DNA of 64,000 bases from Bacteroidales bacterium. Its GTDB lineage: Bacteria > Bacteroidota > Bacteroidia > Bacteroidales > UBA10428. Position 1 is the first letter of the stretch. The number at the start of each line of letters is the position of its first letter. The DNA lies in contig JAFGQZ010000001.1 in NCBI GenBank assembly GCA_016935435.1, positions 1 to 64,000 of the forward strand, written 5' to 3'. This document shows positions 17,677-59,351 of the stretch, in pieces. The position numbers and the translations under genes are program-made. Under the pieces are notes generated by a model. It saw nothing but the letters and a program-made list of their open reading frames with translations, was not told the origin of the DNA and made no database searches.

Positions 17677-17970
17677 ATGAACGGCAAACTAAAAAATACC
17701 GATAAAAACACTGTATTAAAAACAGGCAGCGATTTAAACATTGAAGTTATAAAAGATTTGTATAAGCAACTTGTAGAGCTTTTTAAAAGAAACGAGCCTT
17801 TTGTAATAAAATCGCCCGGCATAAAAAACATCGATCTTACCGGCATACAATTTCTTTACCATGCAAAAAAAACTGGTGAAACCAACAATACACCAGTTAC
17901 ATTCGACCTGAATTTTTCCGAAGAGGTAAAACAGTTTTTGTCTAAAACCGGTTTTAGCAGTTTAATTTAA
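17677..17970 (+). CDS. STAS-domain protein in a CheA operon
   Basis: A 97-aa single STAS (anti-sigma-antagonist type) domain. FVIKSPGIKNIDLTGIQFLYHAKK matches the strand and helix that carry the regulatory serine in SpoIIAA; here the position is Thr55 (DLTG). It is followed 15 bases later by a receiver gene and then CheA, all in one run, so it likely takes part in the same pathway. STAS proteins act as phosphorylatable switch partners, but the kinase partner here is not evident. Confidence 0.8.
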   Translation: MNGKLKNTDKNTVLKTGSDLNIEVIKDLYKQLVELFKRNEPFVIKSPGIKNIDLTGIQFLYHAKKTGETNNTPVTFDLNFSEEVKQFLSKTGFSSLI

Positions 17971-17985
17971 AACATCAATTATTTT

Positions 17986-18354
17986 ATGGCCCGAAAAAAG
18001 AGAATACTCTTATTTGAAGAATTTGAAAGCATCAGGAACATTCTTGTAAAAACATTGGAAAAAAAAGACGCAGAAACCATAATTGTAAGTTCTTTTAACG
18101 ATGCAAAAAAACAGTTAAACGGCACGGGTTTTAGCATGGCAATAATCGATTTCGACAATAAAAACCACCAATCGCTTGAGTTAATAAAATATATGCGAGA
18201 AACCTCAAGCTATATTTTTACTCCTATTATACTGCTTATTACAGGCAACAAGGAGCAATTTACCGATCGGCTTTCGGGGTATAATATTGCCTGCTACCTT
18301 ACAAAACCGTTCGATATGGCTTTGTTTAATTCTGTTACCGACCGATTTAAATAA
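17986..18354 (+). CDS. CheY-like receiver protein with altered acid pocket
   Basis: A 122-aa stand-alone receiver domain. The phosphoacceptor Asp55 (MAIIDF), the switch Thr (LLITGN) and the Lys (YLTKPFD) are all present. The usual N-terminal acid pair DD is replaced by EE (LLFEEFES), which may alter Mg binding. It has no output domain. Located between the STAS gene and cheA, it is the obvious phosphoacceptor candidate for that CheA, as a CheY analogue acting on a non-flagellar target. Confidence 0.85.
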   Translation: MARKKRILLFEEFESIRNILVKTLEKKDAETIIVSSFNDAKKQLNGTGFSMAIIDFDNKNHQSLELIKYMRETSSYIFTPIILLITGNKEQFTDRLSGYNIACYLTKPFDMALFNSVTDRFK

Positions 18355-18394
18355 AACTCTTCAATAACAAAAATAGTTGCTAAAAAACACCCTT

Positions 18395-20851
18395 ATGGAC
18401 AACGAAAAAATAACTGATAAATATAAATCCGAGCTGCTACAGCTATTAAGTTCTCTCGAAAAAATGCTTAAAGGTATTTCGGGCACACCTGCAAATAATT
18501 TGGTAAAACAAGTTTACTCAATTGTGCACAAAATAAACCAAACTGCCGTTGAAACGGGGTTAAACTACCTTTCGAACCTGTTTGCCCCCATCGAAAAGAA
18601 AATTTCTGCGGCAATAGAACAAAAACAAACCCTCGAACAGCCAGAACTTACCATAATTATTAGCGCTGCGGCCACCGGACAGGAACTTACCAACGATTCG
18701 GGGCTAAACCGTCCCGGAATGAAAACAGCTTACGAAAACATAAAGAAAACAATTCTATCGGCATTTTCGGCCGAAACAACCAACGAACAAAGTTCATTCT
18801 CCAACAGCAGGTTCGAAGAAATTTTTAAAGATGAGGCCATAGACCTGATAAACCAGCTAGAGGAGAAACTATTGCAACTCGAAGGTACACCCGACGACCC
18901 GGCACTTATCGACAATGTTTTTCGTATAATGCACACCCTTAAGGGAAACAGCAATATGTTCGGGCACAAGTACCTTGGCGAAATTACCCATCACCTCGAA
19001 AATGTTTACGATGGCATACGCAGCCATAAATTCGATGTTACCCGACAAATACTGGAAATAACCCTGCAATGTATCGACCACTTCCGAAACCTGATTGACG
19101 ACCCCGAACTATCCGACACTTCGAACAAGGTAATCCAGGAAAGCATTCTTAGCGATATAACCGAAATAAGCGAAAGCGACAATAACCAATCGGCACCCGA
19201 GGCCAAAATTGGCAAGATTGCCGGAGGGGTACAAAGTTTTTATATCTTTTTTAAACCCAACAGCGATATATTTAAAGATGGCACCAACCCTTTATACTAT
19301 GTTTACGACTTAAACGATTTGGGCGATTGTTTAATATTACCGGTTCTTGCCGAAGCTCTCCAGCTCGAAAAAATTGAGCCGGAAAAATGCTATATGTCGT
19401 GGCATATACTGCTGGTTACAAAAGAAACCAAAGAAACCATAGGCGACAACTTTATGTTCCTGAACGAGAACAGCCAGCCCGATATATCCATAGTATCGAA
19501 AACCGATGTTCTAAAAGACAAGCAATTTATCGACAAATTTATGCTGCTGTCCACAAAACCGGTTTCTATTGCCTCTGATTTGGCAGCACAGGCAATTGCC
19601 GAAGCAAAAACAGAAGAAAAAAACTCTGTAAAATCAAAAACAACTGCTGCTGACGCATCGGTTGCAAGCATAAGGGTGGCATCGGCCAAAGTCGATTTAA
19701 TGATGAACCTTATCAGCGAACTGGTAACCAAGCAGGCAGAGCTCAGCATGCTGGCAAATAACCAGAACAATGCACAATTGCTGGAAGTAGCCGAAAGTAT
19801 CGAATCGATATCGCGCGATTTACGCGACAATGCATTCAGTATATCGCTTATACCACTTGAAAAAACGGTATTGCGCTTTCAACGATTGGTGCGCGACGTA
19901 GCAGCCAAGTTTAACAAAAAAGTGAATTTTATTGTCGAAGGCAAAGAAACCGAACTGGATAAAACCATTATCGAGAAAATTGTCGATCCGATTATGCACA
20001 TTCTCCGCAATAGTATTGACCATGGCATTGAAACCCCCGACCAGCGGCTTGCCTTGGGCAAACCCGAAATTGGCGAAATAAAACTAAAGGCTTACCCCTC
20101 GGGGGCACACGTAGTAATTGAAATTACCGACGACGGTTCGGGCATCAATGTGGAAAAAGTTCGAAAAACCGCTGTAAAAAAAGGCTACATCGGGGCAAGC
20201 GACGAACTCTCAACCGACCACATGCTAAAACTTATACTTTCGCCAGGCTTCTCCACCGCCGACAATGTAAGCGAGGTTTCGGGCAGGGGCGTTGGCATGG
20301 ACGTTGTACACCAAAAAATTAAAGAAATACGTGGCGAACTGGAAATCTACACACAGGAAAACAAAGGCACAACACTAATAATCAGGCTCCCACTAACAAT
20401 TTCCATCATCGATTCGCTATTGGTACTAATCGGTTCTACCTATTACTTAATACCCCTGGCGGTAGTTCAGCGGTGTGCCGAGGTAAAAACCCAGGTTATT
20501 ACCGAATCGCCGGTAAGATACCTGAACCTCGATGGCGAATATATTCCGTTTGTCGATCTGCACAAAGAATTCGACATAAAAGAAGAACGTGCCGATTACC
20601 AACGATTAATTATGCTCAAACATAAAAATATGCTGATAGCACTGGTTGTCGATCATATTATTGGCAACCACCAGGCAGTGCTAAAAGCCCTCGGACAAGC
20701 TTACCGCAAACAGGAAGTAGTTTCGGGGGCAAGCATCCTCGGAAACGGCGAAGTGGCCCTGGTGCTCGACACCAACAAGTTGTTACAGGAATACATGTCA
20801 GAACGAGAAGTTGAATTGGAAAGATTATACAAACAAAGCATTAAAGTTTAA
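18395..20851 (+). CDS. cheA: Chemotaxis histidine kinase CheA (array 1)
   Basis: An 818-aa CheA. ATG 18395 is preferred over TTG 18377. An HPt-like but H-poor helical region (about 1-100) precedes the true HPt domain with IMHTLKGNSNMFG (phospho-His180). A P2-like region follows (FYIFFKPNSDIFKDGTNPLY, SWHILLVTKET), then the dimerisation helices (ASAKVDLMMNLISELVTKQAELS), HATPase_c (MHILRNSIDHGIE, ITDDGSGIN, SGRGVGMDVV) and a C-terminal CheW-like regulatory domain ending near YKQSIKV. All catalytic boxes are intact. It forms an operon with the STAS and receiver genes. Confidence 0.95.
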   Translation: MDNEKITDKYKSELLQLLSSLEKMLKGISGTPANNLVKQVYSIVHKINQTAVETGLNYLSNLFAPIEKKISAAIEQKQTLEQPELTIIISAAATGQELTNDSGLNRPGMKTAYENIKKTILSAFSAETTNEQSSFSNSRFEEIFKDEAIDLINQLEEKLLQLEGTPDDPALIDNVFRIMHTLKGNSNMFGHKYLGEITHHLENVYDGIRSHKFDVTRQILEITLQCIDHFRNLIDDPELSDTSNKVIQESILSDITEISESDNNQSAPEAKIGKIAGGVQSFYIFFKPNSDIFKDGTNPLYYVYDLNDLGDCLILPVLAEALQLEKIEPEKCYMSWHILLVTKETKETIGDNFMFLNENSQPDISIVSKTDVLKDKQFIDKFMLLSTKPVSIASDLAAQAIAEAKTEEKNSVKSKTTAADASVASIRVASAKVDLMMNLISELVTKQAELSMLANNQNNAQLLEVAESIESISRDLRDNAFSISLIPLEKTVLRFQRLVRDVAAKFNKKVNFIVEGKETELDKTIIEKIVDPIMHILRNSIDHGIETPDQRLALGKPEIGEIKLKAYPSGAHVVIEITDDGSGINVEKVRKTAVKKGYIGASDELSTDHMLKLILSPGFSTADNVSEVSGRGVGMDVVHQKIKEIRGELEIYTQENKGTTLIIRLPLTISIIDSLLVLIGSTYYLIPLAVVQRCAEVKTQVITESPVRYLNLDGEYIPFVDLHKEFDIKEERADYQRLIMLKHKNMLIALVVDHIIGNHQAVLKALGQAYRKQEVVSGASILGNGEVALVLDTNKLLQEYMSEREVELERLYKQSIKV

Positions 20852-48017: not shown

Positions 48018-50957
48018 TTACACTTTCACGGGGAGTGTAAATTTAAAATTGCTGCCTAATCCTACGGCACTTTCCACCCAGATTTCACCACCGTGGCGTT
48101 CGACAAACTCTTTGCACAACAACAGCCCCAGCCCCGAACCTTTTTCTTGTGAAGTTCCGGCCCTTATGGCATTCTTTTCGAGTGTAAACAGCTTTTCGAT
48201 AATGTTTTTTTCCATACCAACGCCATTATCGGCAATCGATATCTCAACCCAATCTCTTGTATTTTTGGCACTTACAGCTACCTTCCCCTCATTTGGGGTA
48301 AATTTCAAGGCATTCGACAACAAGTTGCGCAAAATGGTTTTTAACATATCGATATCGGCAAAAACATTAAGTTCGGGGGGAAAAGAATACGACAATGAAA
48401 TGTTTTTCGACTGTGCCATGGGATTGACAATGCCAAATACTTCAAACAACAGGGGTTTTAACCCCAAAGGTTGCGGGTTGAAATTTATCTGCCCCGTTTG
48501 CGATTTGGCCCAGTTTAAAAGGTTGTCGAGCAGCGAAAGGGTGTTTTGTGCCGAACGGCTTATAGTTTCCACGTAGCGCTTTGCCCGTTCAGCATCGCAA
48601 TTATCAACTATATCGTTTAACAACTCGGAATAACCCAGAATAATGTTAAAAGGGTTCCGCAAGTCGTGGGCAATTATCGAAAAAATCTTGTCTTTTGTAA
48701 CATTAAGCTGTTGTAGTTGCTTTTCCCTGTTCTCGGCTTCTTCCTTTGCAACAAGCAGCTCATTTTCGAATTTTTTGCGGTCGGTGAGATCGGTATGTGT
48801 CCCTATCATCCTTAAAGGTTTTCCATCGGGTGAGTATTTCATAATTTTTCCCCTGTCGAGAATCCATTTAAAGGTACCGTCTTTGCATAATAAACGGTGA
48901 ATATTTGAGTAAACGGGCCATTTGCCGCTTATATGCATTTGTATGTCGGAAATGCATTGTTGCAAATCGTCGGGGTGCACCCGTTTTTCCCATTCGCCCA
49001 GGTTATTTGCTATTTCCCATTCTTCGAAGCCCAGCATTTTTTTCCATTGTTTTGAAAAAAACACCTCGTTGGTTTGCAGGTTCCAGTCCCATACCCCGTC
49101 GTTTGCACCTTCAAGGGCAAATTTCCAACGTTCCTCGTTCATTTCTGCCTGTGATTTTGCTTCTTCCAGTTTGTCGCGGTATTCCAGGCGGGCAAAAGCA
49201 ATTTCAATGGCCGAGCTTACTTCTTCGAAAAATGCCACAAAACCCGGCTGTATTTTCCCTTCGTGCCAGCTGTTTAATTGCAGTAATCCGGCTATTGAGT
49301 TGTTTATCCTGAGCGGCACGAGCAAAAGCGACTGGTAGCCGGTATCGATACAGCATGGCCTGAAACCCGGCACTTTATCCGCCAAAATACCAGAATAAGC
49401 CTTAAAATTATTAATAAAAAAACTTCCCTTGATTGTAAATCCAGGCAAGCCTTCAACAGGAGTGCCGCTTATAACGCTTCCGCAAAGGCAGTCGAGCAGT
49501 GGGCTGCCATCGATGTTGTGCTTTATATGCCCCTCTTTTTCGCAAAACGAACAAATAAAATTGCCATTAGAAACAAAATCGGCAGAAAACCCCAGGTGTG
49601 AGTAATACGGGTAATCGTCGCCATTTTTAAGGCGTATGCCTACCGAATCGAAAGCAGTAAATTGTTTTATCTCAGCCAGAATATCGTTTACCATGCTGTC
49701 GAGATTGTGCGAACGGTTCAATATCCGTAAAACTTTTCCGTATAATTCCTGCCGCTGTTCGGCAAGCTTTCTTTCGTTAATATCGAATATATATGCCTTA
49801 ATCTGTACAAGCTCGTTTTTCTCGTCATAGTCGCCTGTAATATTTTCAATAATGTGAATGAGGCTGCCATCTTTGCGGGTTCGGATGGTTTCGTAGTTTC
49901 TAAGTTGTTTATGGCTATTCAGCGATGACAGGATCATTTGCAGCTCGTTTGTGCTATTGTGCAAAACTGCAATGCTTTGGCCGATTATTTCATCTTTCGA
50001 AGAATAGCCGAAAATATCGAGAAACGAAGCATTGCAATCTTTAATTATTCCATTGGTATCGATAATTAAATCGCCGGTAAGGTCGTCTTCAAATAGTTTC
50101 CTGAATTTTGCCTCGCTGTCTTTTAGCTTTTTCAGGGCAAGTACCTTATCGGTAATATCAAACGAAAAGCCGGCAATATACCGTGTTTTGTCGCCCAGTT
50201 CTATCGGAAACTTAAGTGTGGAATAATATTTGCCATTAAATTCTTCCTGAACTTCAACAGTTTTGTGCTCTTTCAAAACTTTCAGATCGTCGGCGTCCAT
50301 ATTGCGGGCAAATTCCGGGGGGAACAGCTCGCTGTTTATTTTGCCCAGCATATTTTGGGTTGGGATCCCCAAAAGGGTTTCGAAATTGCCGCTTAACTTT
50401 TTTGCCCTGAGTTTCTCATCTTTAAAATATATCAGGGCTGGACTGAGTTTTAAAAACTGTCCGAATATTTCCTGTTCGGTTTCAAGCTTATTTTTAGTTT
50501 CAGTAAGCTCGGTGTTTAACCGGTGTAATAATTCTTCGACGTTTTTCCTTTCGGTTACATCAACAAATGTGGCAAGCTTGCATTCCTCGTCCATGAATGT
50601 TATTTTACTGTCGCTGACATCGGCATAAAATAATTCGTTGTTCTTTTTTAAACAGGGTACATTTCTTAATGTTTTTTCGGGTGCCCCGAAAGCCTCACCG
50701 GCCATTTCCATAAAATGGGCCGGGTGCAAACCTGTAAAATGGAGCCCGGGAATTTCACCGGGGATATAATTAAAGAGCCTGCAAAACGATTTGTTTGCAA
50801 AAACTAAAAAACCAGTGCGTAAACTAGCAATAACAATACCTTCGGCAATATTGTCGAAAATTGTTTTGTACAACTCAACCTCTTTGTGCAAAATTGCCAC
50901 ATTATGGCCCAGCCTGTCTTGTGTATGAGGGTTTTCGTCCATAAAATGCCCAAACAT
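48018..50957 (-). CDS. PAS/GAF sensor histidine kinase
   Basis: A 979-aa kinase without clear membrane segments. PAS domains are near the start (TIFDNIAEGIVIASLRTG), at LSPALIYFKDEK and at LFEDDLTGDLIIDTNG, then a GAF domain (about 430-600, with FICSFCEKEGHI and LLDCLCGSVISG), another PAS (FALEGANDGVWDWNLQTN), HisKA (IFSIIAHDLRNPFNIILGY, phospho-His764) and HATPase_c ending GSNFKFTLPVKV. It has no receiver. The cysteines in the GAF domain may bind a metal or heme, though this is unproven. Its response regulator is not adjacent. Confidence 0.92.
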   Translation of the reverse strand: MFGHFMDENPHTQDRLGHNVAILHKEVELYKTIFDNIAEGIVIASLRTGFLVFANKSFCRLFNYIPGEIPGLHFTGLHPAHFMEMAGEAFGAPEKTLRNVPCLKKNNELFYADVSDSKITFMDEECKLATFVDVTERKNVEELLHRLNTELTETKNKLETEQEIFGQFLKLSPALIYFKDEKLRAKKLSGNFETLLGIPTQNMLGKINSELFPPEFARNMDADDLKVLKEHKTVEVQEEFNGKYYSTLKFPIELGDKTRYIAGFSFDITDKVLALKKLKDSEAKFRKLFEDDLTGDLIIDTNGIIKDCNASFLDIFGYSSKDEIIGQSIAVLHNSTNELQMILSSLNSHKQLRNYETIRTRKDGSLIHIIENITGDYDEKNELVQIKAYIFDINERKLAEQRQELYGKVLRILNRSHNLDSMVNDILAEIKQFTAFDSVGIRLKNGDDYPYYSHLGFSADFVSNGNFICSFCEKEGHIKHNIDGSPLLDCLCGSVISGTPVEGLPGFTIKGSFFINNFKAYSGILADKVPGFRPCCIDTGYQSLLLVPLRINNSIAGLLQLNSWHEGKIQPGFVAFFEEVSSAIEIAFARLEYRDKLEEAKSQAEMNEERWKFALEGANDGVWDWNLQTNEVFFSKQWKKMLGFEEWEIANNLGEWEKRVHPDDLQQCISDIQMHISGKWPVYSNIHRLLCKDGTFKWILDRGKIMKYSPDGKPLRMIGTHTDLTDRKKFENELLVAKEEAENREKQLQQLNVTKDKIFSIIAHDLRNPFNIILGYSELLNDIVDNCDAERAKRYVETISRSAQNTLSLLDNLLNWAKSQTGQINFNPQPLGLKPLLFEVFGIVNPMAQSKNISLSYSFPPELNVFADIDMLKTILRNLLSNALKFTPNEGKVAVSAKNTRDWVEISIADNGVGMEKNIIEKLFTLEKNAIRAGTSQEKGSGLGLLLCKEFVERHGGEIWVESAVGLGSNFKFTLPVKV

Positions 50958-51250
50958 TAACCAAACATCAACTGCACTTGCTTTTTTATGCCAGCCAATG
51001 CTGTAATCAAGTTAGCAAAAAATTAACAAAACCCCTTAAGTATTTTTTGTGGCTAGACTTAATTTTGTTGGTGCATGGCATATGGGGTAAGTTTAGAAAA
51101 AGACAACTACCCAGAAGAATGTTAGTTTTCTGGCATGGCATCGTACAAATGTATGAGGAAAAAATCGTACATATTACATTGAAATTCATTATATAGCCGA
51201 TGCTTTTCGATTTTTGCCGTTATAATTTTATATGTATATATCGGCAAAAA
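50958..51250. other. Divergent intergenic region before the second che operon
   Basis: 293 AT-rich bases between the PAS/GAF kinase and cheA 2, which diverge. TAATTTTG at 51060-51067 matches the -7 box TAnnTTTG on the plus strand, but the nearest TTTG upstream is only 10 bases away. No ORF with convincing coding signal. Confidence 0.4.
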
Positions 51251-53251
51251 ATGGAATCGTCTATTAATAAGTTTAAAGACAAGTTTATTGAAGAGGCCAA
51301 CGGCTTGCTCGACCAGCTGGAAAACGATTTGCTGGAACTTGAACACAAACCGCTTGAAAAGGAACTAACAGAATCGGCATTCAGGGCCTTGCATACCATA
51401 AAGGGGGCAAGCAACATGTTTGGGTTCGGGTATATTTCGGATTTTACCCACCATCTGGAAAGTTTGTACCAACTTATTAGGGAACAAAAACTAACTTTTA
51501 ACAGCAATATCTCCGACCTCACTTTCCAATCGGTCGATCATATCCGGAAGATGCTTAGCGATGAAACTTTATCGGAAACATCGAACAAAAGCAAACACAA
51601 AAAACTCATTGAGGGCATCGAACGTGCAATAGAACAGAAGCCCTCCAATGAAGGGGTAATGGAGCCAACTGCCAATAATGTCACAGAAAATTCACCCGGC
51701 ACATGGCACATATTGTTACGCACCTCTGAGGCGTTGTTTTTCAGGGGCATAAACCTTGTAAGTATTTTTCATGAGCTCTCGTCGCTGGGCCGTTTTCAGG
51801 TTTCTCGTATCGACACCATGAGTTCCGACAACACCGATACATGGAGCATTTTTTTGCATACCACAGCCGGTGAACAGGAAATACGCGAAGTATTTCTGTT
51901 TATCGACGACGACTGTACATTTGTGAAACTGGCAGAAAACAACAATAGTTTAGATTTTGTAAACAGCCCGGCTGAACAGACAGATGATAGTGATAGTTTA
52001 TCGATTCTCGATTTTATTGAAAGCGGCAACGCCTCCGGAACAAAACCTATAAACAATGAGCAGGCAAACCAGAACGGGCAACAGCCACAGTTCAGGAAAC
52101 AAACCAGCAAACGAATATCGGTAGAGTCGTCAAAAATCGACCACCTCATGTTCCTGGTAAGCGAACTTATAACCGTAAATTCGCAGTTAAACCTCTCAAC
52201 ACGCTCCGAGCAGTTTAACCCTGTAAGGCCCTACCTCGAAAAAGTTGACAGCCTGGCAAAGCAGTTCCGCAACAATGCCCTCGACATAAGGCTTGTACCA
52301 TTAAGCGATACGGTATTGAGGTTTCAGCGGCTTATCCGCGATTTGTCGAAGCAATTAAACAAACAAATCAACTTTAAAACCCAGGGCACCAATACCGAGC
52401 TCGACAAAAACACTATCGACCAGCTTACCGAACCGCTAATGCATATTATCCGCAATTGTATCGACCATGGTATAGAAAGCCCCGAAGCCCGCATAAAAAA
52501 AGGAAAAACCGAAAACGGCACCATTACTATGTCGGCCTATTGTTCGGGCAACAATGTGTATATAATTATTTCAGACGATGGCAGCGGCATCAACGATGAA
52601 AAAGTCCGCCAAAAGGCCATAGACAAAGGCTTGTTGCTACCAGGCGAAAAACCTGCAAAAAAAGTGTTGTACGATTTTATTTTTATGCCAGGCTTTTCAA
52701 CCGCCCAAAGCCTTACAGAGGTATCGGGGCGTGGCGTGGGAATGGATGTTGTTAAACGCCGTATAAACGATTTGCGAGGCGAGGTTTTTGTAGATTCGGA
52801 ACCCAACAACGGCACTACTTTTACCCTAAAACTGCAACAATCGATGTCGATTATCGATTCGCTCCTTTTTACGGTAGGCAACAGCTTTTTTACCGTGCCA
52901 ATAGCAGAAATCGACAAATGCATACAAGTAGAGAACACCGATATTGTAAAACAACGCCACACCTCTACCCTGCCCTTTAACAATAAACTAATTCCATTTG
53001 TTGACCTTCGCAACCTGCTTGTTGCAGATGGCGCTTACCCCGAAAGCCTCAAATCGATAATTATTCACAGCAACGAAAAAGAAATGGCCTTGCTGTGCGA
53101 TAAAATTATTGGCGAACACCAGGCTGTACTGAAACCTTTAGGCAAATCGTTCCGCGAACAAAAATATATAACGGCGGCAAGCCAAATGGGCGATGGCAAT
53201 ATGGCATTCATGATCGACACCAATGTGCTGTTTAAACTTTCGAGCGTGTAA
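51251..53251 (+). CDS. cheA: Chemotaxis histidine kinase CheA (array 2)
   Basis: A 666-aa CheA, first gene of the second chemotaxis operon. ATG 51251 gives the HPt domain directly (FRALHTIKGASNMFG, phospho-His48). A P2-like region follows (TWHILLRTSEALFFRGINLV, DTWSIFLHTTAGE), then dimerisation helices (SSKIDHLMFLVSELITVNSQLN), HATPase_c (MHIIRNCIDHGIESPEARI, ISDDGSGIND, VSGRGVGMDVVKRR) and a CheW-like domain. It is shorter than the CheA at 18 kb, lacking the extra N-terminal helical region, and intact in all catalytic boxes. Confidence 0.95.
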   Translation: MESSINKFKDKFIEEANGLLDQLENDLLELEHKPLEKELTESAFRALHTIKGASNMFGFGYISDFTHHLESLYQLIREQKLTFNSNISDLTFQSVDHIRKMLSDETLSETSNKSKHKKLIEGIERAIEQKPSNEGVMEPTANNVTENSPGTWHILLRTSEALFFRGINLVSIFHELSSLGRFQVSRIDTMSSDNTDTWSIFLHTTAGEQEIREVFLFIDDDCTFVKLAENNNSLDFVNSPAEQTDDSDSLSILDFIESGNASGTKPINNEQANQNGQQPQFRKQTSKRISVESSKIDHLMFLVSELITVNSQLNLSTRSEQFNPVRPYLEKVDSLAKQFRNNALDIRLVPLSDTVLRFQRLIRDLSKQLNKQINFKTQGTNTELDKNTIDQLTEPLMHIIRNCIDHGIESPEARIKKGKTENGTITMSAYCSGNNVYIIISDDGSGINDEKVRQKAIDKGLLLPGEKPAKKVLYDFIFMPGFSTAQSLTEVSGRGVGMDVVKRRINDLRGEVFVDSEPNNGTTFTLKLQQSMSIIDSLLFTVGNSFFTVPIAEIDKCIQVENTDIVKQRHTSTLPFNNKLIPFVDLRNLLVADGAYPESLKSIIIHSNEKEMALLCDKIIGEHQAVLKPLGKSFREQKYITAASQMGDGNMAFMIDTNVLFKLSSV

Positions 53252-53324
53252 AGTTCAGGTAAAAAAAAAACACAACCCTGGTAAACAAAACAACAAATGC
53301 AATAACCAAAAAACATATACACAG

Positions 53325-53792
53325 ATGAAGAACACCTACTTATCGTTTGTAATTGGCGACGAACAATACGCCGTAAATGTTTTTAAAGTGCTTGAAGTAC
53401 TCGAAAAACAAGTAATATCGAGAGTGCCCAATGCCCCACATTTTATAAAAGGAATAGTGAATTTCAGGGGCGACATTGTGCCCGTTTTTGAGTCGCGCGA
53501 CAAATTTAACCTGCCACCCCGGCCCGAAGGCTCATCGTATGTAATTATTGTTCTCGATTTATCGAAAGAGAACGAAATTTTCCGCATTGGGGCCGTTGTT
53601 GACAGGGTGAAAGATGTTCTTGAAATAGACGATGCCGAAATAAAGGCAGTACCGGCAATGAGCAAAGACTTCAACACTAAATTCCTGAACGGTATTTACA
53701 AGCTCGACAATAAATTCATCCTGCTGCTCGATGTCGAAAAAGTTTTTACCGATGAGGAAGTAACCGTTATGTCGAAAATAGCAGAAGTGTAG
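53325..53792 (+). CDS. cheW: CheW adaptor protein
   Basis: A 155-aa CheW, the scaffold that links receptors to CheA. ATG 53325 gives the normal start (MKNTYLSFVIGDEQYAVNVFK). VLEVLEKQVISRVPNAPHFIKGIVNFRGDIVPVFE is the canonical core with the NFRGDIVPV motif, and IGAVVDRVKDVLEI the second. It lies 73 bases after cheA and 20 before cheR. It probably recruits the receptor encoded two genes downstream. Confidence 0.95.
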   Translation: MKNTYLSFVIGDEQYAVNVFKVLEVLEKQVISRVPNAPHFIKGIVNFRGDIVPVFESRDKFNLPPRPEGSSYVIIVLDLSKENEIFRIGAVVDRVKDVLEIDDAEIKAVPAMSKDFNTKFLNGIYKLDNKFILLLDVEKVFTDEEVTVMSKIAEV

Positions 53793-53812
53793 TCCTCTAA
53801 AACAACTGTTCC

Positions 53813-54418
53813 ATGGCGTTTACTTTCTTTTTTCGCGATGAACAAATACTGTCGCTGGCCGTGCAAAACCTTGTTCCACTGTCGATTGGCAGGGCCAATG
53901 TGCACATTTTAAATGCCGGTTGCGCCATGGGCATGGAAACCTACACCTTTGCCATTCTCCTGGCCGAAAGCATAGGAAAATTTGCCCTTAGGAACATAAA
54001 AATACATGCTGTGGATATCGATAACGAAAATGTTGACTTTGGTAAAACGGTTACTGAAGGTATTTATCATAAAGAACACTTACAGCGCATTCCCCCGGCT
54101 TTATTCTCAAAATATTTCAGGGCTTATGGCAATGGCGAATATTTTATAATTGGCGAAGAACTGCGCAGCCTGGTTACTTTCAAAAAGCTCGATTTACTGG
54201 AATTAACGCCCCTGCGCACCGATTACAGCTTGATTATCTGCAAAAACGTGCTTTTACATTTTAGCTACAACCAGCGTATCGAAGTGCTTAAAATGTTCCA
54301 CAGCTCGTTGCTCGAAGGCGGGCTTCTCGCTATGGAAAACACCCAGGCTATGCCCGCTGAACTTGCCGGAAAATTTAAAAAGCTGGTCGATTATGCACAA
54401 TTATACGCAAAAACCTAA
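53813..54418 (+). CDS. cheR: CheR-like methyltransferase, catalytic domain only
   Basis: A 201-aa CheR homologue covering the SAM-binding domain. FFRDEQILSLAVQNLVP starts where a normal CheR leaves its N-terminal helical domain, which is absent. Motif I is NAGCAMGMETYTFAILLAE (usually SAGCSTGEEPYS), with HAVDIDNENVDFG, YFRAYGNGEYFIIGEELRSL and IICKNVLLHFSYNQRIEVL further on. Several usual residues are changed (CSTGEE to CAMGMET), so activity is possible but uncertain. It starts 20 bases after cheW and ends six before the next gene. Confidence 0.82.
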   Translation: MAFTFFFRDEQILSLAVQNLVPLSIGRANVHILNAGCAMGMETYTFAILLAESIGKFALRNIKIHAVDIDNENVDFGKTVTEGIYHKEHLQRIPPALFSKYFRAYGNGEYFIIGEELRSLVTFKKLDLLELTPLRTDYSLIICKNVLLHFSYNQRIEVLKMFHSSLLEGGLLAMENTQAMPAELAGKFKKLVDYAQLYAKT

Positions 54419-54424
54419 GCCCTC

Positions 54425-55006
54425 ATGAAAATTATCAATTTAACTGAAGACAGCAAGCGTTACACATCGAATGTGTTCCTGGTGCTTGGCACATGGAACG
54501 CAGTTGATGATGCTAACACGCTTATTGATGTGGGCAGCGATGAAAACATTATTGGTAAAATAGGTGCTATAAATACAGGGCTCGGAAAAAAGAAAGTCGA
54601 TCAGGTTATACTTACACACAGCCATTCCGACCATTCGGCAATACTGCCAATTATTAAAGAAGCATACAACCCTATAGTTTATGCGCTCAACCCGCACATT
54701 AAGGGGGTTGACCGCCTTCTCGCCGATGGAATGGTGTTGCGCATAGCCGAACAGTATTTCGAGGTTTTCCATATAACAGCGCACAGCTGCGACTCGGTTT
54801 GCCTTTACTGTAAAACCGACGGGGTACTTTTTGCAGGGGACACCAGCTTTCCGATAGAATTTGAAAATAACCGTCTGAAGGCCGAAAACGAACAAGTGCT
54901 CAAACGGCTGGCAAAAATGAACATAAAAACGGTTTACCCCGGGCATGGCGCCCCAAGGCAATACGCCAACAACCAATTCAGGATAATTAAAGAAAAACAA
55001 TTTTAA
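54425..55006 (+). CDS. Metallo-beta-lactamase-fold hydrolase in the che operon
   Basis: A 193-aa MBL-fold protein with a complete metal set: THSHSDHS (His65, His67, Asp69, His70), His120 (ITAHSCDS), Asp139 (FAGDTSF) and His174 (YPGHGAP). This is the binuclear HxHxDH glyoxalase-II-like site, not the HxExD of the flavodiiron type. Sandwiched between cheR and the receptor gene (six and 29 bases apart), it is almost certainly co-expressed. The substrate is unknown, and a role in signal processing or as a sensor is inferred. Confidence 0.85.
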
Positions 55007-55035
55007 ATATTTTAACCATAAACGGAGGAAATACT

Positions 55036-57771
55036 ATGAACAAGCTAAAAATCAGGACAAAACTGCTTATCAGTTTTTTTATACTGATAATCATTTCAGG
55101 GGTTATCGGGTACCTGGGTATCACAAAAATCCATGAAATAGATGAAAAAGACACCGAACTTTACGAAGTGGTTACAAAACCTTTGGGCGAGTTGAACGAA
55201 GTCGTTTACAATTTTCAACAGATACGGGTAATTTACCGCGATTATGTAAGGGAAAACAATGTAGGGCAAATTAATGCCCAGATTTCAAAACGCAAGGAAA
55301 TAAGTGATACAATAGGTTTGCTGATGGCTGAATATGAGAAATCTATCCGTACCGATAATGGAAGAAAGCTTATGGACAATTATTTTGCCAACCGCAACCA
55401 GTTTATTGAAGATTTGGAAACAGTAGAAAAGCTGGCATTGGAAAATAACGATGCCGAGGCGTATGAATTTATCGACAACGGCAGCATTAGTAAAACCGTA
55501 AACAATTACGAAGCCGCCCTAATGGCACTTGTTGATAATAAGATAGAAAGGGGCAAAGGAATAGCCGATGAAAACACAAAAACGGCCAACGCAGCATCGC
55601 GCCTGATGTTTATTTTTCTTGTATTCGGAATTTTTGCAGCCACAATACTGGGGCTGGTTGTTTCAACCAACATACAGAATATAATTAAATCGGTGGTAAA
55701 ACAAACCAAAGAACTTGTTGACGCTGCCATTGCCGGAAGGCTGGCCACACGGGCAAAACCAGAAGACACTAACGCAGAGTTCAGGGAAATTGTTGTGGGC
55801 ATTAACCGCACCCTCGATGCAGTTATCGGCCCCCTTAACGTAGCTGCCGAATATATCGACCGGATTGCCAAAGGCAATATACCCGAAAAAATTACCGACA
55901 CTTATAATGGCGATTTCAACGAAATAAAAAACAACCTCAATGCCTGTATCGATGCCATTAACATGCTTATTTCCGATGCCACCCTGCTTGCCGGTGCAGC
56001 TATTGAAGGCAAACTTGCCACCCGTGCCGATGCAACCATGCACGAAGGCGACTACCGAAAAATTGTTGAAGGCGTAAACAACACCCTCGATGCAGTTATC
56101 GGCCCGCTGAATGTGGCTGCCGAATATATCGACCGGATTTCGAAAGGGAACATACCCAATAAAATTACCGACACTTATAATGGCGACTTCAACGAAATTA
56201 AAAACAACCTCAACGAATGTATCGGCAACCTCAACGGGCTTATCGATGAAATGAACCACATGTCGAGAGAACACGACCTGGGCGACATTGATGTAGTAAT
56301 GGATGTTTCGAAATTCCAAAACTCGTACCGCGATATGGCCGAAGGCGTAAACAATATGGTTGCCGGCCATATAACCGTAAAGAAAAAAGCCATGGCCTGT
56401 GTAAAAGAATTTGGCGAAGGCAATTTCGAAGCGCCCCTTGAAAAGTTTCCGGGCAAAAAAGCATTTATTAACGAAACCATCGAACAGGTACGTGCAAACC
56501 TGAAAGCCCTTATTGACGATGCCAATATGCTGGCCCGGGCCGCAGTTGAAGGAAAATTGCAAACCCGTGCCGATGCCACCAGGCACCAGGGCGATTTCAG
56601 AAAAATTGTTGAAGGCGTAAACAACACCCTCGATGCTGTTATCGGCCCTCTTAACGTAGCTGCCGACTACCTTTCACTAATATCAATCGGCGACATGCCT
56701 GCACTGATTACAGAAAAATACAATGGCGATTTCAATACCATAAAAAACAACCTGAACAAGCTCATTGAAGCAATCAACCAGGTAATTGACAAGGCCAAGG
56801 CCGTCGCAGAAGGCGATTTGACCGTTTCGCTGGCGCCGCGTTCGGAAAACGACGAATTGATGAAAGCCCTCGACTCAATGGTTAAGGCAAATGCCAATAT
56901 TATCAACGAATTTATTAACGCAATCGACAATATTGTACAGGCAAGCCAGCAACTTCAATCGGTTGCCGTACAAATATCGCAGGGTTCAACAGAACAGGCA
57001 TCGTCAACCGAAGAAGTTTCATCGTCGATGGAGCAAATGGTTGGAAATATTAACCAAAACTCCGACAATGCACGGCAAACCGAACAAATAGCGCTGCGGG
57101 CATCGGCCGATATTATTGAAGGGAACAAGGCTGTTACCATAACAGTTGATGCCATGAAAAAAATTGCCGAGAAAATATCGATAGTTGGCCAAATTGCCGA
57201 AAAAACCGATTTGCTTGCCATAAATGCAGCCATTGAAGCTGCAAGGGCAGGCGAACAAGGCAAAGGCTTTGCTGTAGTTGCTGCCGAAGTGCGCAAGCTT
57301 GCCGAAAACAGCCAGGCCGCAGCTAAAGAAATCGACGAACTTTCGAAATCGAGTGTGAAAATAGCCGACGAATCGGGCGTATTACTGCAGAAAATAGTTC
57401 CCGACATACAAAAAACAGCCACTCTGGTACAAGAAATTGCCGCAGCCAGTTCTGAACAAAATTCGGGCGCCAACCAGGTAAACAATGCCATTATGCAATT
57501 AAACCAGGTTACCCAGCAAAACGCATCGGCATCGGAAGAAATGTCGTCGAGCGCCGAAGAACTGGCCAGTCAGGCTGAACAGCTTAAAGACCTCATTTCG
57601 TTCTATAAAACCGGCAAAGAATCAAGAACCGAAACCAGGTCGTTGCGAGAAAAAGATAAGGGCTCAAAAATAAAACTCTCCATGCCCCAGCCCGATATAC
57701 ATAAAACCTCTAAGGGAAAGGTAGAGATAAAACTCACCGACAGCGGCGACGATAGTTTTGAAACCTTCTGA
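55036..57771 (+). CDS. Methyl-accepting chemotaxis protein with four ~91-residue HAMP-like repeats
   Basis: A 911-aa receptor with a GGAGG ribosome site (55024-55028). TM1 is about 9-28 and TM2 about 193-216, with a four-helix-bundle sensor between. A stretch of four ~91-residue repeats follows (starting about 223, 316, 407 and 497). Three share [32 protein letters not shown] and similar; the third unit is divergent. A further HAMP-like piece ([19 protein letters not shown]) leads to the MCP hairpin with tip [19 protein letters not shown]. It ends DDSFETF. The tip differs from the other two receptors, suggesting its own CheA/CheW (this operon). Confidence 0.94.
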
Positions 57772-57908: not shown

Positions 57909-59351
57909 ATGACTGGCGAAAAAAGCACAATATTGTATGTCGATGACGACTCGATAAACCTCGAAATATTCAGGGAATTTTTTCAGAACTGTTTTAATGT
58001 TATTACTGTTAAAACCACTTCCGAAGCCGACGAAATACTAAAAAAAATACCTGTAAAGGTTATTATATCCGATCAATGCATGCCCCATGAAACCGGAATC
58101 GATTTTATTAAACGAATAAACACCCATTACCCCGATGCAATAAAAATTATACTTACGGCATTTGCAAGCCAGGATATGGCCGTAGAAGCAATAAATGAGG
58201 CAGGCGTGTTCAAATACCTGCTCAAACCCTGGAAATACGAAGCTTTAAAGGAAACTATTGACAGTTCGATAAGGGAATTCGACCTCAGGCACGAAAAAAA
58301 ACAACTACTTATTGAACTACAAGAAAAAAACGATGCCCTGGTTTATGCCTATAAAAAACTCGAAGCCAACGAGAAAAAATTTCATGCTGTATTTTCAAAC
58401 AGCAACGACAGCATTTATATACTTAACCCTCAAAAACAAATTATTGAAGCAAACAAAGCCTTCCTGGATTTAACCGGCTGTAACGAACCTGTTGACAAAC
58501 CTGAAAGAATTACCTCCTATATAACAAAGAAATTCCCGATACTTATAAACAAACCTTTTGAACTGGCAAAAAATATTAAAACCGTTGGCGATATTGAATT
58601 AAACATCGGGCCCAACGATGACAGGTTTATTGAAATAAACAGCAATAAAATTTACACCGACAAAAGCAGTATGATATTTTCGATTATACGCGACATAAGC
58701 GATAGACGTATGCTCGAAAAAAAAATTGTTGAGGCCATAATCCACACACAGGAGGAAGACCAGGCTAAATATGCCCGCGAGCTGCACGACGGGCTTGGGC
58801 CCCTGCTATCGACCCTTAAAATGCACATACAATGGATTGCCGACCCTAACAATTCTGTTAACAAAGAAAAAATTACAGAACATGCCATTCTTACCATCGA
58901 TAAGGCCATAAGCAGTGTAAAAGAAATTGCCAACGGCCTTAGCCCTCATATTTTGCAACGCTTCGGACTGGTAAATGCCGTTTCGGCATATATCGGGCAT
59001 ATTAAACAATCGACCGATATAGAATTCTTGTTTTCATCGAACCTTAACGAACGCCTGAAGCCAAATGTCGAGCTCGGGCTGTACCGTATAATACTTGAAT
59101 GCATAAATAATTCGGTTAAACACGCCCGGGCAAAAAAAATAATTGTTAAATTTAATAAACAACACAGCCTTTTGTTTATTGAACTTACCGATAATGGCAG
59201 GGGCTTCGATGTGCAAAAAGAACTCAACGAGGGCAGCGGTATGGGCCTGTTTAATATTCGAAACCGTGTAAACCATATCGGAGGCGAGCTGAATATAATA
59301 TCGAACGTTAACATTGGTACAGAAATATCTATAATAATAAATGTTGGTTGA
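57909..59351 (+). CDS. Receiver-PAS-HisKA_3 sensor kinase
   Basis: A 480-aa soluble kinase with an unusual order: N-terminal receiver (ILYVDDDSINLEIFREFF, VIISDQCMPH with Asp55, LTAFAS and LKPWK), a coiled coil, PAS (FHAVFSNSNDSIYILNPQKQ), HisKA_3 (AKYARELHDGLGPLLSTLKM, phospho-His293) and HATPase_c. The input receiver could accept phosphate from CheA or another kinase, and so link the upstream chemotaxis operon to the LuxR regulator 17 bases downstream. Partner inferred, domains clear. Confidence 0.93.
   Translation: MTGEKSTILYVDDDSINLEIFREFFQNCFNVITVKTTSEADEILKKIPVKVIISDQCMPHETGIDFIKRINTHYPDAIKIILTAFASQDMAVEAINEAGVFKYLLKPWKYEALKETIDSSIREFDLRHEKKQLLIELQEKNDALVYAYKKLEANEKKFHAVFSNSNDSIYILNPQKQIIEANKAFLDLTGCNEPVDKPERITSYITKKFPILINKPFELAKNIKTVGDIELNIGPNDDRFIEINSNKIYTDKSSMIFSIIRDISDRRMLEKKIVEAIIHTQEEDQAKYARELHDGLGPLLSTLKMHIQWIADPNNSVNKEKITEHAILTIDKAISSVKEIANGLSPHILQRFGLVNAVSAYIGHIKQSTDIEFLFSSNLNERLKPNVELGLYRIILECINNSVKHARAKKIIVKFNKQHSLLFIELTDNGRGFDVQKELNEGSGMGLFNIRNRVNHIGGELNIISNVNIGTEISIIINVG

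Follow-up and report, generated by a model that had tools for sequence, protein, structure and literature searches.

A STAS-receiver-CheA triplet and a che operon lacking exactly STAS and CheA in a Bacteroidales bacterium

Introduction

In Sinorhizobium meliloti, CheS is a STAS adaptor that binds the kinase CheA and tunes the receiver; binding of the receiver CheY1 to CheA-CheS is 100-fold stronger, and CheS sharpens the response curve, according to three papers (PMC12654446, PMC4214558, and PMC8429497). Here, we describe a related arrangement in a 64,000-nucleotide stretch of a Bacteroidales genome (GenBank assembly GCA_016935435.1, contig JAFGQZ010000001.1, positions 1 to 64,000), which we refer to as the window, where genes for a STAS-domain protein, a single-domain receiver, and a CheA kinase follow each other on the + strand. 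We favor the view, with reasonable though not strong confidence, that this triplet is a relocated CheS-CheY-CheA-type chemosensory module, whose STAS protein and CheA serve an operon on another contig, C105, in trans, while its own receiver is spare.

The S. meliloti CheS-CheY1-CheA system and the window share the order of a 97-aa STAS protein, a receiver, and CheA, a homologous P2-like domain in CheA, and the pairing of one kinase with two receivers. On the other hand, the window side differs in having no flagellar marker, a changed acid pair in the receiver, an extra Hpt-type domain, and a STAS and CheA located apart from the C105 operon, and the two STAS proteins are too diverged for a direct match. 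The complete che operon that we found in other Bacteroidota (genomes G014, G085, and G046) likewise has the STAS-receiver-CheA order with homologous CheA and STAS proteins, but its receiver carries Asp-Asp and it has no extra Hpt-type domain, whereas in the window genome STAS and CheA are located outside the operon.

Two further systems resemble parts of the locus. Pseudomonas aeruginosa ChpA, as presented in PMC10782961, also has more than one Hpt-type domain, some of them without His; however, ChpA has a C-terminal receiver too, which the window CheA lacks, and the extra domain of the window CheA was seen only in this genus and one related metagenome-assembled genome (MAG). In the PorX-GldL system, a CheY-like domain binds a type 9 secretion/gliding motor protein (PMC10951265 and PMC5005315), which is the kind of output that we propose here. 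PorX differs in that it carries a PglZ domain and is paired with the sensor PorY; CheA has no occurrence in PMC10951265.

Results and discussion

The triplet and its domains

The window lies on contig C50 of a genome of 107 contigs with a completeness of 93.5%. The initial annotation had reported an operon of STAS, receiver, and CheA at this locus; the open frames, consecutive on the + strand, and Pfam confirm it, with the following features:

17677..17970, + strand: STAS-domain protein, putative CheS-like adaptor; 97 aa, motif Asp53-Leu54-Thr55-Gly56-Ile57-Gln58, Pfam STAS
17986..18354, + strand: single-domain receiver; 122 aa, acid pair Glu11-Glu12, Asp55, Thr86, and Lys107
18377..20851, + strand: CheA kinase; 824 aa from TTG 18377
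18395..18796, + strand: second P1/Hpt-type domain, at the N-terminus of CheA; residues 7-140, His51 and Glu73, other residues in place of the Hpt motif Lys and Gly
18812..19162, + strand: canonical P1/Hpt domain of CheA; residues 146-262, His186
19226..19552, + strand: P2-like domain of CheA; residues 284-392, with homology to residues 178 to ~262 of the S. meliloti kinase

The window STAS scores 25.5 bits against Pfam STAS (cut-off, 22.6) and the receiver 30.3 bits against Response_reg (cut-off, 30.2), while CheA matches Hpt, H-kinase_dim, HATPase_c, and CheW, with all core domains above their cut-offs. Among the matches listed (for the receiver, the best 25 of 43), no NCBIfam model exceeded its cut-off for any of the three proteins. 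The genes are spaced by 15 and 22 bases, or by 40 in the second case if CheA starts at an in-frame ATG (18395) that agrees better than TTG 18377 with where the relatives' proteins begin; CheA residues are numbered here from the TTG. A divergent DUF4846 gene lies upstream of the triplet and a SUI1-domain gene downstream.

An operon on contig C105 lacks exactly STAS and CheA

In G014, G085, and G046, the complete operon encodes a protein X, STAS, CheY, CheA, CheW, CheR, a histidine kinase, CheD, CheB, and a PAS protein, the STAS of G046 (L033) having been recognized by the STAS profile. The receivers of these relatives are Asp-Asp, and their operons hold no extra Hpt-type domain. In the window genome, contig C105 (L018 1904-12132) carries X, CheY, CheW, CheR, a histidine kinase, CheD, CheB, a PAS protein, and a histidine kinase-receiver protein. 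Compared to the three relatives, the C105 operon is without exactly STAS and CheA, and the gaps at these places measure 21 and 36 bases. The CheY on C105 has the canonical Asp-Asp acid pair and is 85% identical to the CheY of the G014 operon, as opposed to 28% for the window receiver. A search with the window CheA found three CheAs in its own genome, among which the window CheA is the nearest to the complete-operon CheAs (551-561 bits versus 434-466). Furthermore, the triplet CheA is the only CheA at E ≤1e-30 in the same search of G002, G005, and G008. Since C105 is missing exactly STAS and cheA, the triplet probably supplies both in trans, as the gene content suggests. An otherwise ordered operon from which STAS and CheA are jointly missing also offers a natural case supporting a partnership of the two proteins.

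As a separate observation, several che operons of Bacteroidota encode a protein of ~570-600 aa ahead of STAS or CheY (L018 10426-12132; L161 1546-3357), and its C105 copy had zero Pfam matches at E ≤0.01.

The STAS-receiver-CheA order is frequent at Bacteroidota chemotaxis loci

At E ≤1e-30, the window CheA search matched 41 of 99 genomes, its own included, from which 30 loci were analyzed; the named collection comprises 77 loci, with 46 of them (L059, L082, and L086-L129) outside the gene-order analysis and with duplicates (L053-L057 are contigs of L024-L028, and L060 equals L031). For the count of upstream genes, we used 50 CheA loci, window included, that were chosen by similarity to the window CheA and offer at least 1.2 kb of upstream sequence, five of 55 having been dropped for offering less; these 50 loci are not independent because they include near-copies (L064-L067, L070/L072, and L078/L080). 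Both STAS and a receiver precede CheA in 36 loci, a receiver only in 5, STAS only in 3, and neither in 6. With a receiver profile, L065 moves from STAS only to the triplet class, which then totals 37, and L079 and L084 move from neither to receiver only. Among the 30 named loci examined, 25 have CheW after CheA; four same-genus triplets and L085 lack it directly behind CheA.

The order extends beyond the phylum. The annotated S. meliloti record, in which the names CheS and CheY1 do not appear, lists a globin-coupled sensor, STAS, a response regulator, CheA, CheW, CheR, CheB, a response regulator, and CheD; the Phaeobacter record resembles this order, and Azospirillum and Shinella also have STAS upstream, so that four of the five plasmid records examined do. 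The locus had initially been read as an unusual mix of parts, a description that these regular che-operon arrangements do not support, while the accompanying idea that STAS, receiver, and CheA belong together is supported. The STAS adaptor known next to CheY and CheA from alphaproteobacteria is suggested to belong regularly to the che operons of Bacteroidota as well. The literature matches listed, a scope outside which most subscription papers fall, contain no description of a STAS gene in Bacteroidota che operons. The spread of the operon in Bacteroidota, its splitting, and the paired change in receiver and Hpt-type domain described below were not found in these matches either, while the kind of system is itself known.

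A few loci in this collection have surprising labels. L059 bears the label Thermosynechococcaceae but shares 98.9% identity across 3454 bases with the Cytophagales contig L061 and is probably mis-binned, and the STAS-CheY-CheA operons of L063 and L077 in MAGs labelled Thalassovita and Omnitrophota may reflect gene transfer or mis-binning.

The STAS protein lacks the phosphorylation site of RsbV-type antagonists

A profile of 20 STAS proteins, including that of the window, matched RsbV in a PDB sequence search (E 0.0003), with its consensus Asp-Leu-Ser aligned to Asp-Ser-Thr of RsbV. The Ser after Asp is presumably the phosphorylated residue of RsbV and SpoIIAA. In the window protein, the corresponding residues are Asp53-Leu54-Thr55, so the Thr placed at the switch position by the initial annotation sits one residue too late, and Leu54 occupies the place of the RsbV Ser in the alignment. 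We extended this comparison to 42 Che-linked STAS proteins, which were gathered by an iterative search that started with only the window STAS and used no motif (43 proteins minus the L060 duplicate); a motif-seeded profile of 26 sequences that required a hydrophobic residue after Asp recovers the same 43. The residue after Asp is Leu in 29, Ile in 7, Val in 3, and Met, Pro, and Asp in 1 each, such that none of the 42 has a Ser or Thr at the RsbV/SpoIIAA-type phosphorylation site. The second residue after Asp is Thr in 12, Ser in 10, Ala in 10, and others in the remainder, and a Gln stands five residues past the Asp in all 42. Pfam support for the relatives' STAS proteins is uneven, with 6 of the 10 Bacteroidota proteins scanned exceeding a cut-off.

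These results bear on the partner-switching idea of the initial annotation, in which phosphorylation through CheA or the receiver would free the STAS protein to bind an anti-sigma factor or another STAS partner. According to a review, most STAS-only proteins are anti-sigma antagonists, and an action of CheS on sigma factors has been suggested, with evidence lacking (PMC12654446). SpoIIE-type matches number 15 in the window genome, the gene directly after CheA in Persicobacter encodes a SpoIIE-type phosphatase, and G077 carries SiaC (Pfam) and DUF6272 genes (L051 3-952) past the 3' end of a CheA without STAS and on the opposite strand. However, the canonical phosphorylation site is without Ser or Thr in all 42 Che-linked STAS proteins, and che operons show the same gene order as the triplet. 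No HATPase_c_2 match, as expected for an RsbW-type kinase gene, lies near the triplet, and the only two in the window (48096-48323 and 59091-59279) are below the cut-off and inside longer frames. Genome-wide, there are 14 such matches, with three above the cut-off; two of these fall in frames of >1000 aa, and the only standalone one, a small RsbW-like ATPase on C18 (L142 1450-3238), adjoins a gene with the iron hydrogenase large-subunit domain rather than a sigma factor gene. We therefore regard partner-switching as very improbable, and the suggestion that its parts are mixed into a chemotaxis locus is unsupported.

By analogy with S. meliloti CheS, the window STAS is more plausibly a CheS-like adaptor of CheA, for which the P2-like domain would be the likeliest docking site. 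This domain matches S. meliloti CheA from residue 178 with an hhalign probability of 99.2 (E 2e-19), and four alphaproteobacterial rows with 99.9, the best of 100 column shuffles reaching 28.3. The homology is based on sequence profiles because the fold comparison is undecided: Foldseek returned zero matches at E ≤0.001, and the P2 domain of Thermotoga maritima CheA (1u0s_A) ranked 16th, with a VIA-align Z of 6.6 that is tied with ribosomal S6 and other folds. The CheS site is said to map to residues 163-256 of S. meliloti CheA.

Changed receivers coincide with a His-Glu pair in the N-terminus of CheA

As initially annotated, the window receiver has the acid pair Glu11-Glu12 and Asp55, and we found that Thr86 and Lys107 are kept too. 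Asp-Asp is present in 42 of 47 receivers with readable pairs; the changed pairs are Glu-Glu in the window, Ile-Glu in G005, Glu-Asp in G007, and Glu-Asp in two receivers outside this clade. In a CheA core tree, for which the bootstrap was not fully settled, the three changed-pair genomes form a clade (100/99) that is sister to three Asp-Asp genomes (100/97), with L058 outside. Receivers are 42-47% identical within the changed-pair trio versus 68-70% within the Asp-Asp trio, while kinase cores are alike in this respect (77-79% and 73-78%). The divergence of the receiver is a single evolutionary contrast, not several. Judging from its residues, the window receiver may be losing its Mg2+ site, and it is taken to be the spare one since the Asp-Asp CheY of C105 would be the output.

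Alternatively, the triplet could be an independent chemosensory operon in which the Glu-Glu receiver is fully functional as the output CheY of the window CheA. Asp55, Thr86, and Lys107 are kept, both positions of the pair are acidic, and the available flanks of the triplet in four same-genus loci contain no further che genes. Nevertheless, the receiver diverges fast in this clade, one relative has Ile-Glu, and a canonical CheY without a neighboring CheA exists on C105. We consider an independent operon unlikely, but deserving of attention.

The N-terminal extension of CheA had initially been called H-less. In an AlphaFold2 model from a 7-row alignment, CheA residues 1-142 form five helices with a mean predicted local distance difference test score (pLDDT) of 85.8, the last nine residues being <50. 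A fold search with this domain gave five PDB matches at E ≤0.001, all of them CheA P1 chains, including 1i5n with a TM-score of 0.77-0.81 by target. The extension also matches the canonical P1 in hhalign with a probability of 98.6, compared to 2.0 for reversed columns and 7.6 for the best of 100 column shuffles; by subset, the four His-less rows reach 98.1 and the three His rows 97.2. Its His51 and Glu73 align with His186 and Glu208 of the canonical P1. The model and alignments identify residues 7-140 as a second P1/Hpt-type domain, and one that does have its His, with His51 in the phospho-His column.

Equivalents of His51 and Glu73 are both present in the three changed-receiver genomes and neither in the other four. 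The Hpt motif HxxKG is incomplete, with Asn and Gln replacing Lys and Gly in the window; across the seven rows, the Gly is lost in all and the Lys in six, whereas the canonical P1 keeps His, Lys, Gly, His, and Glu in 28 of 28. Extensions are 27-36% identical within the changed-receiver trio versus 17-28% otherwise. The extra domain was seen in five of eight same-genus relatives and in L058, one related MAG; a class-wide search matched 4 of 395 genomes, including the window genome, but the other three matches begin at profile position 121 or later and leave the extension itself uncovered. In addition, standalone Hpt genes with a His lie between receiver and CheA in the STAS-receiver-CheA operons of L039 (3537-3914, - strand), L078 (5890-6447), and L080 (5905-6462). 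We considered these genes as a source of the extra domain, but the match had a probability of only 61, leaving this origin unsupported.

The quick divergence of both the receiver and the extra domain could indicate a paralogous triplet in decay that retains little function. On the other hand, the CheA core domains all exceed their Pfam cut-offs, identity across six genomes is 64-84% for the canonical P1 and 66-79% for the kinase core, and this CheA is the sole one found in G002, G005, and G008. Decay is hence extremely improbable.

Proposed mechanism

Taking the triplet as a relocated module, CheA would autophosphorylate on His186 of its canonical P1, as in its family, and the STAS protein, if it acts like S. 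meliloti CheS, would attach to CheA, with the P2-like domain as the most likely site, and help to hold a receiver there. The window STAS and CheA would then serve the C105 operon in trans, with its Asp-Asp CheY as the output, perhaps on the GldL/GldM motor. The window receiver, with its Mg2+ site on the way to being lost, may act as a phosphate sink or as a regulator bound to CheA, and the extra Hpt-type domain, with His51 and Glu73, may offer the kinase either a further phospho-acceptor or a decoy substrate.

Several points weigh against this reading. Supply in trans rests on gene content in a genome that is 93.5% complete, and the other two CheAs of the genome could be the C105 kinases. The triplet CheA is present in five of eight same-genus genomes and was not found in G001 (95% complete), G003, or G004 (66 and 69%). 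S. meliloti CheS matches the Bacteroidota STAS profile with an hhalign probability of 1.3, or 10.1 after adding Phaeobacter, and the two are linked (96.5) only when the Azospirillum and Shinella STAS proteins are included. The plasmid of Persicobacter, a member of the Bacteroidota, has receiver-CheA without STAS, then the SpoIIE-type phosphatase (L138 4974-8862). The P2-like domain was counted in 54 of 55 CheAs, including 10 of 11 without an adjacent STAS, in a count where some rows had served to build its profile; being present in nearly all CheAs, it is no mark of a CheS site. Lastly, Glu-Glu stays acidic, and the window receiver is thus not a pseudo-receiver by the definition in PMC12632262.

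A more elaborate version seems to us doubtful at best: STAS and CheA would have left the operon as a pair to serve the orphaned CheY, the receiver that moved along would be changing from a sink into a non-catalytic CheA-bound regulator, and the His-Glu Hpt-type domain, kept or regained, would be an intramolecular sink in a pathway for the gliding motor. If this were true, a phosphate sink would have moved from a separate receiver into the kinase, and a gliding motor rather than a flagellum would be controlled.

Gliding as a candidate output

The initial annotation considered a flagellar switch an unlikely output, as this region does not show one. Our single-marker search agrees, with 0 matches to FHIPEP in the window genome, and we discarded a flagellar output on that result; yet the genome is rich in chemotaxis machinery (7 CheW-domain, 8 methyl-accepting chemotaxis protein [MCP]-domain, and 2 CheB matches). 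Gliding and secretion markers are present, namely GldL, GldJ (462 bits including neighbors; cut-off, 458.2), and PorX (807 bits; cut-off, 300), and the host is probably a flagellum-less gliding bacterium. In Flavobacterium, the phosphorylated CheY-like domain of PorX binds GldL, according to PMC10951265. Because PorX binds GldL, CheY control of the gliding motor is plausible by analogy. The locus makes it testable what a chemosensory kinase controls in a genome with gliding-motor genes and no flagellar marker, for example, through CheY acting on GldL.

Other chemosensory systems of the genome

A second chemosensory cluster lies in the window at 51200-57771 and encodes CheA, CheW, a short CheR, a protein that by eye resembles a metallo-hydrolase, and an MCP in which internal segments recur; CheY is absent directly beside this CheA. 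A third system, on contig C65 (L016 7102-11466), consists of an Asp-Asp CheY, CheA, CheW, and an MCP, with no STAS beside them.

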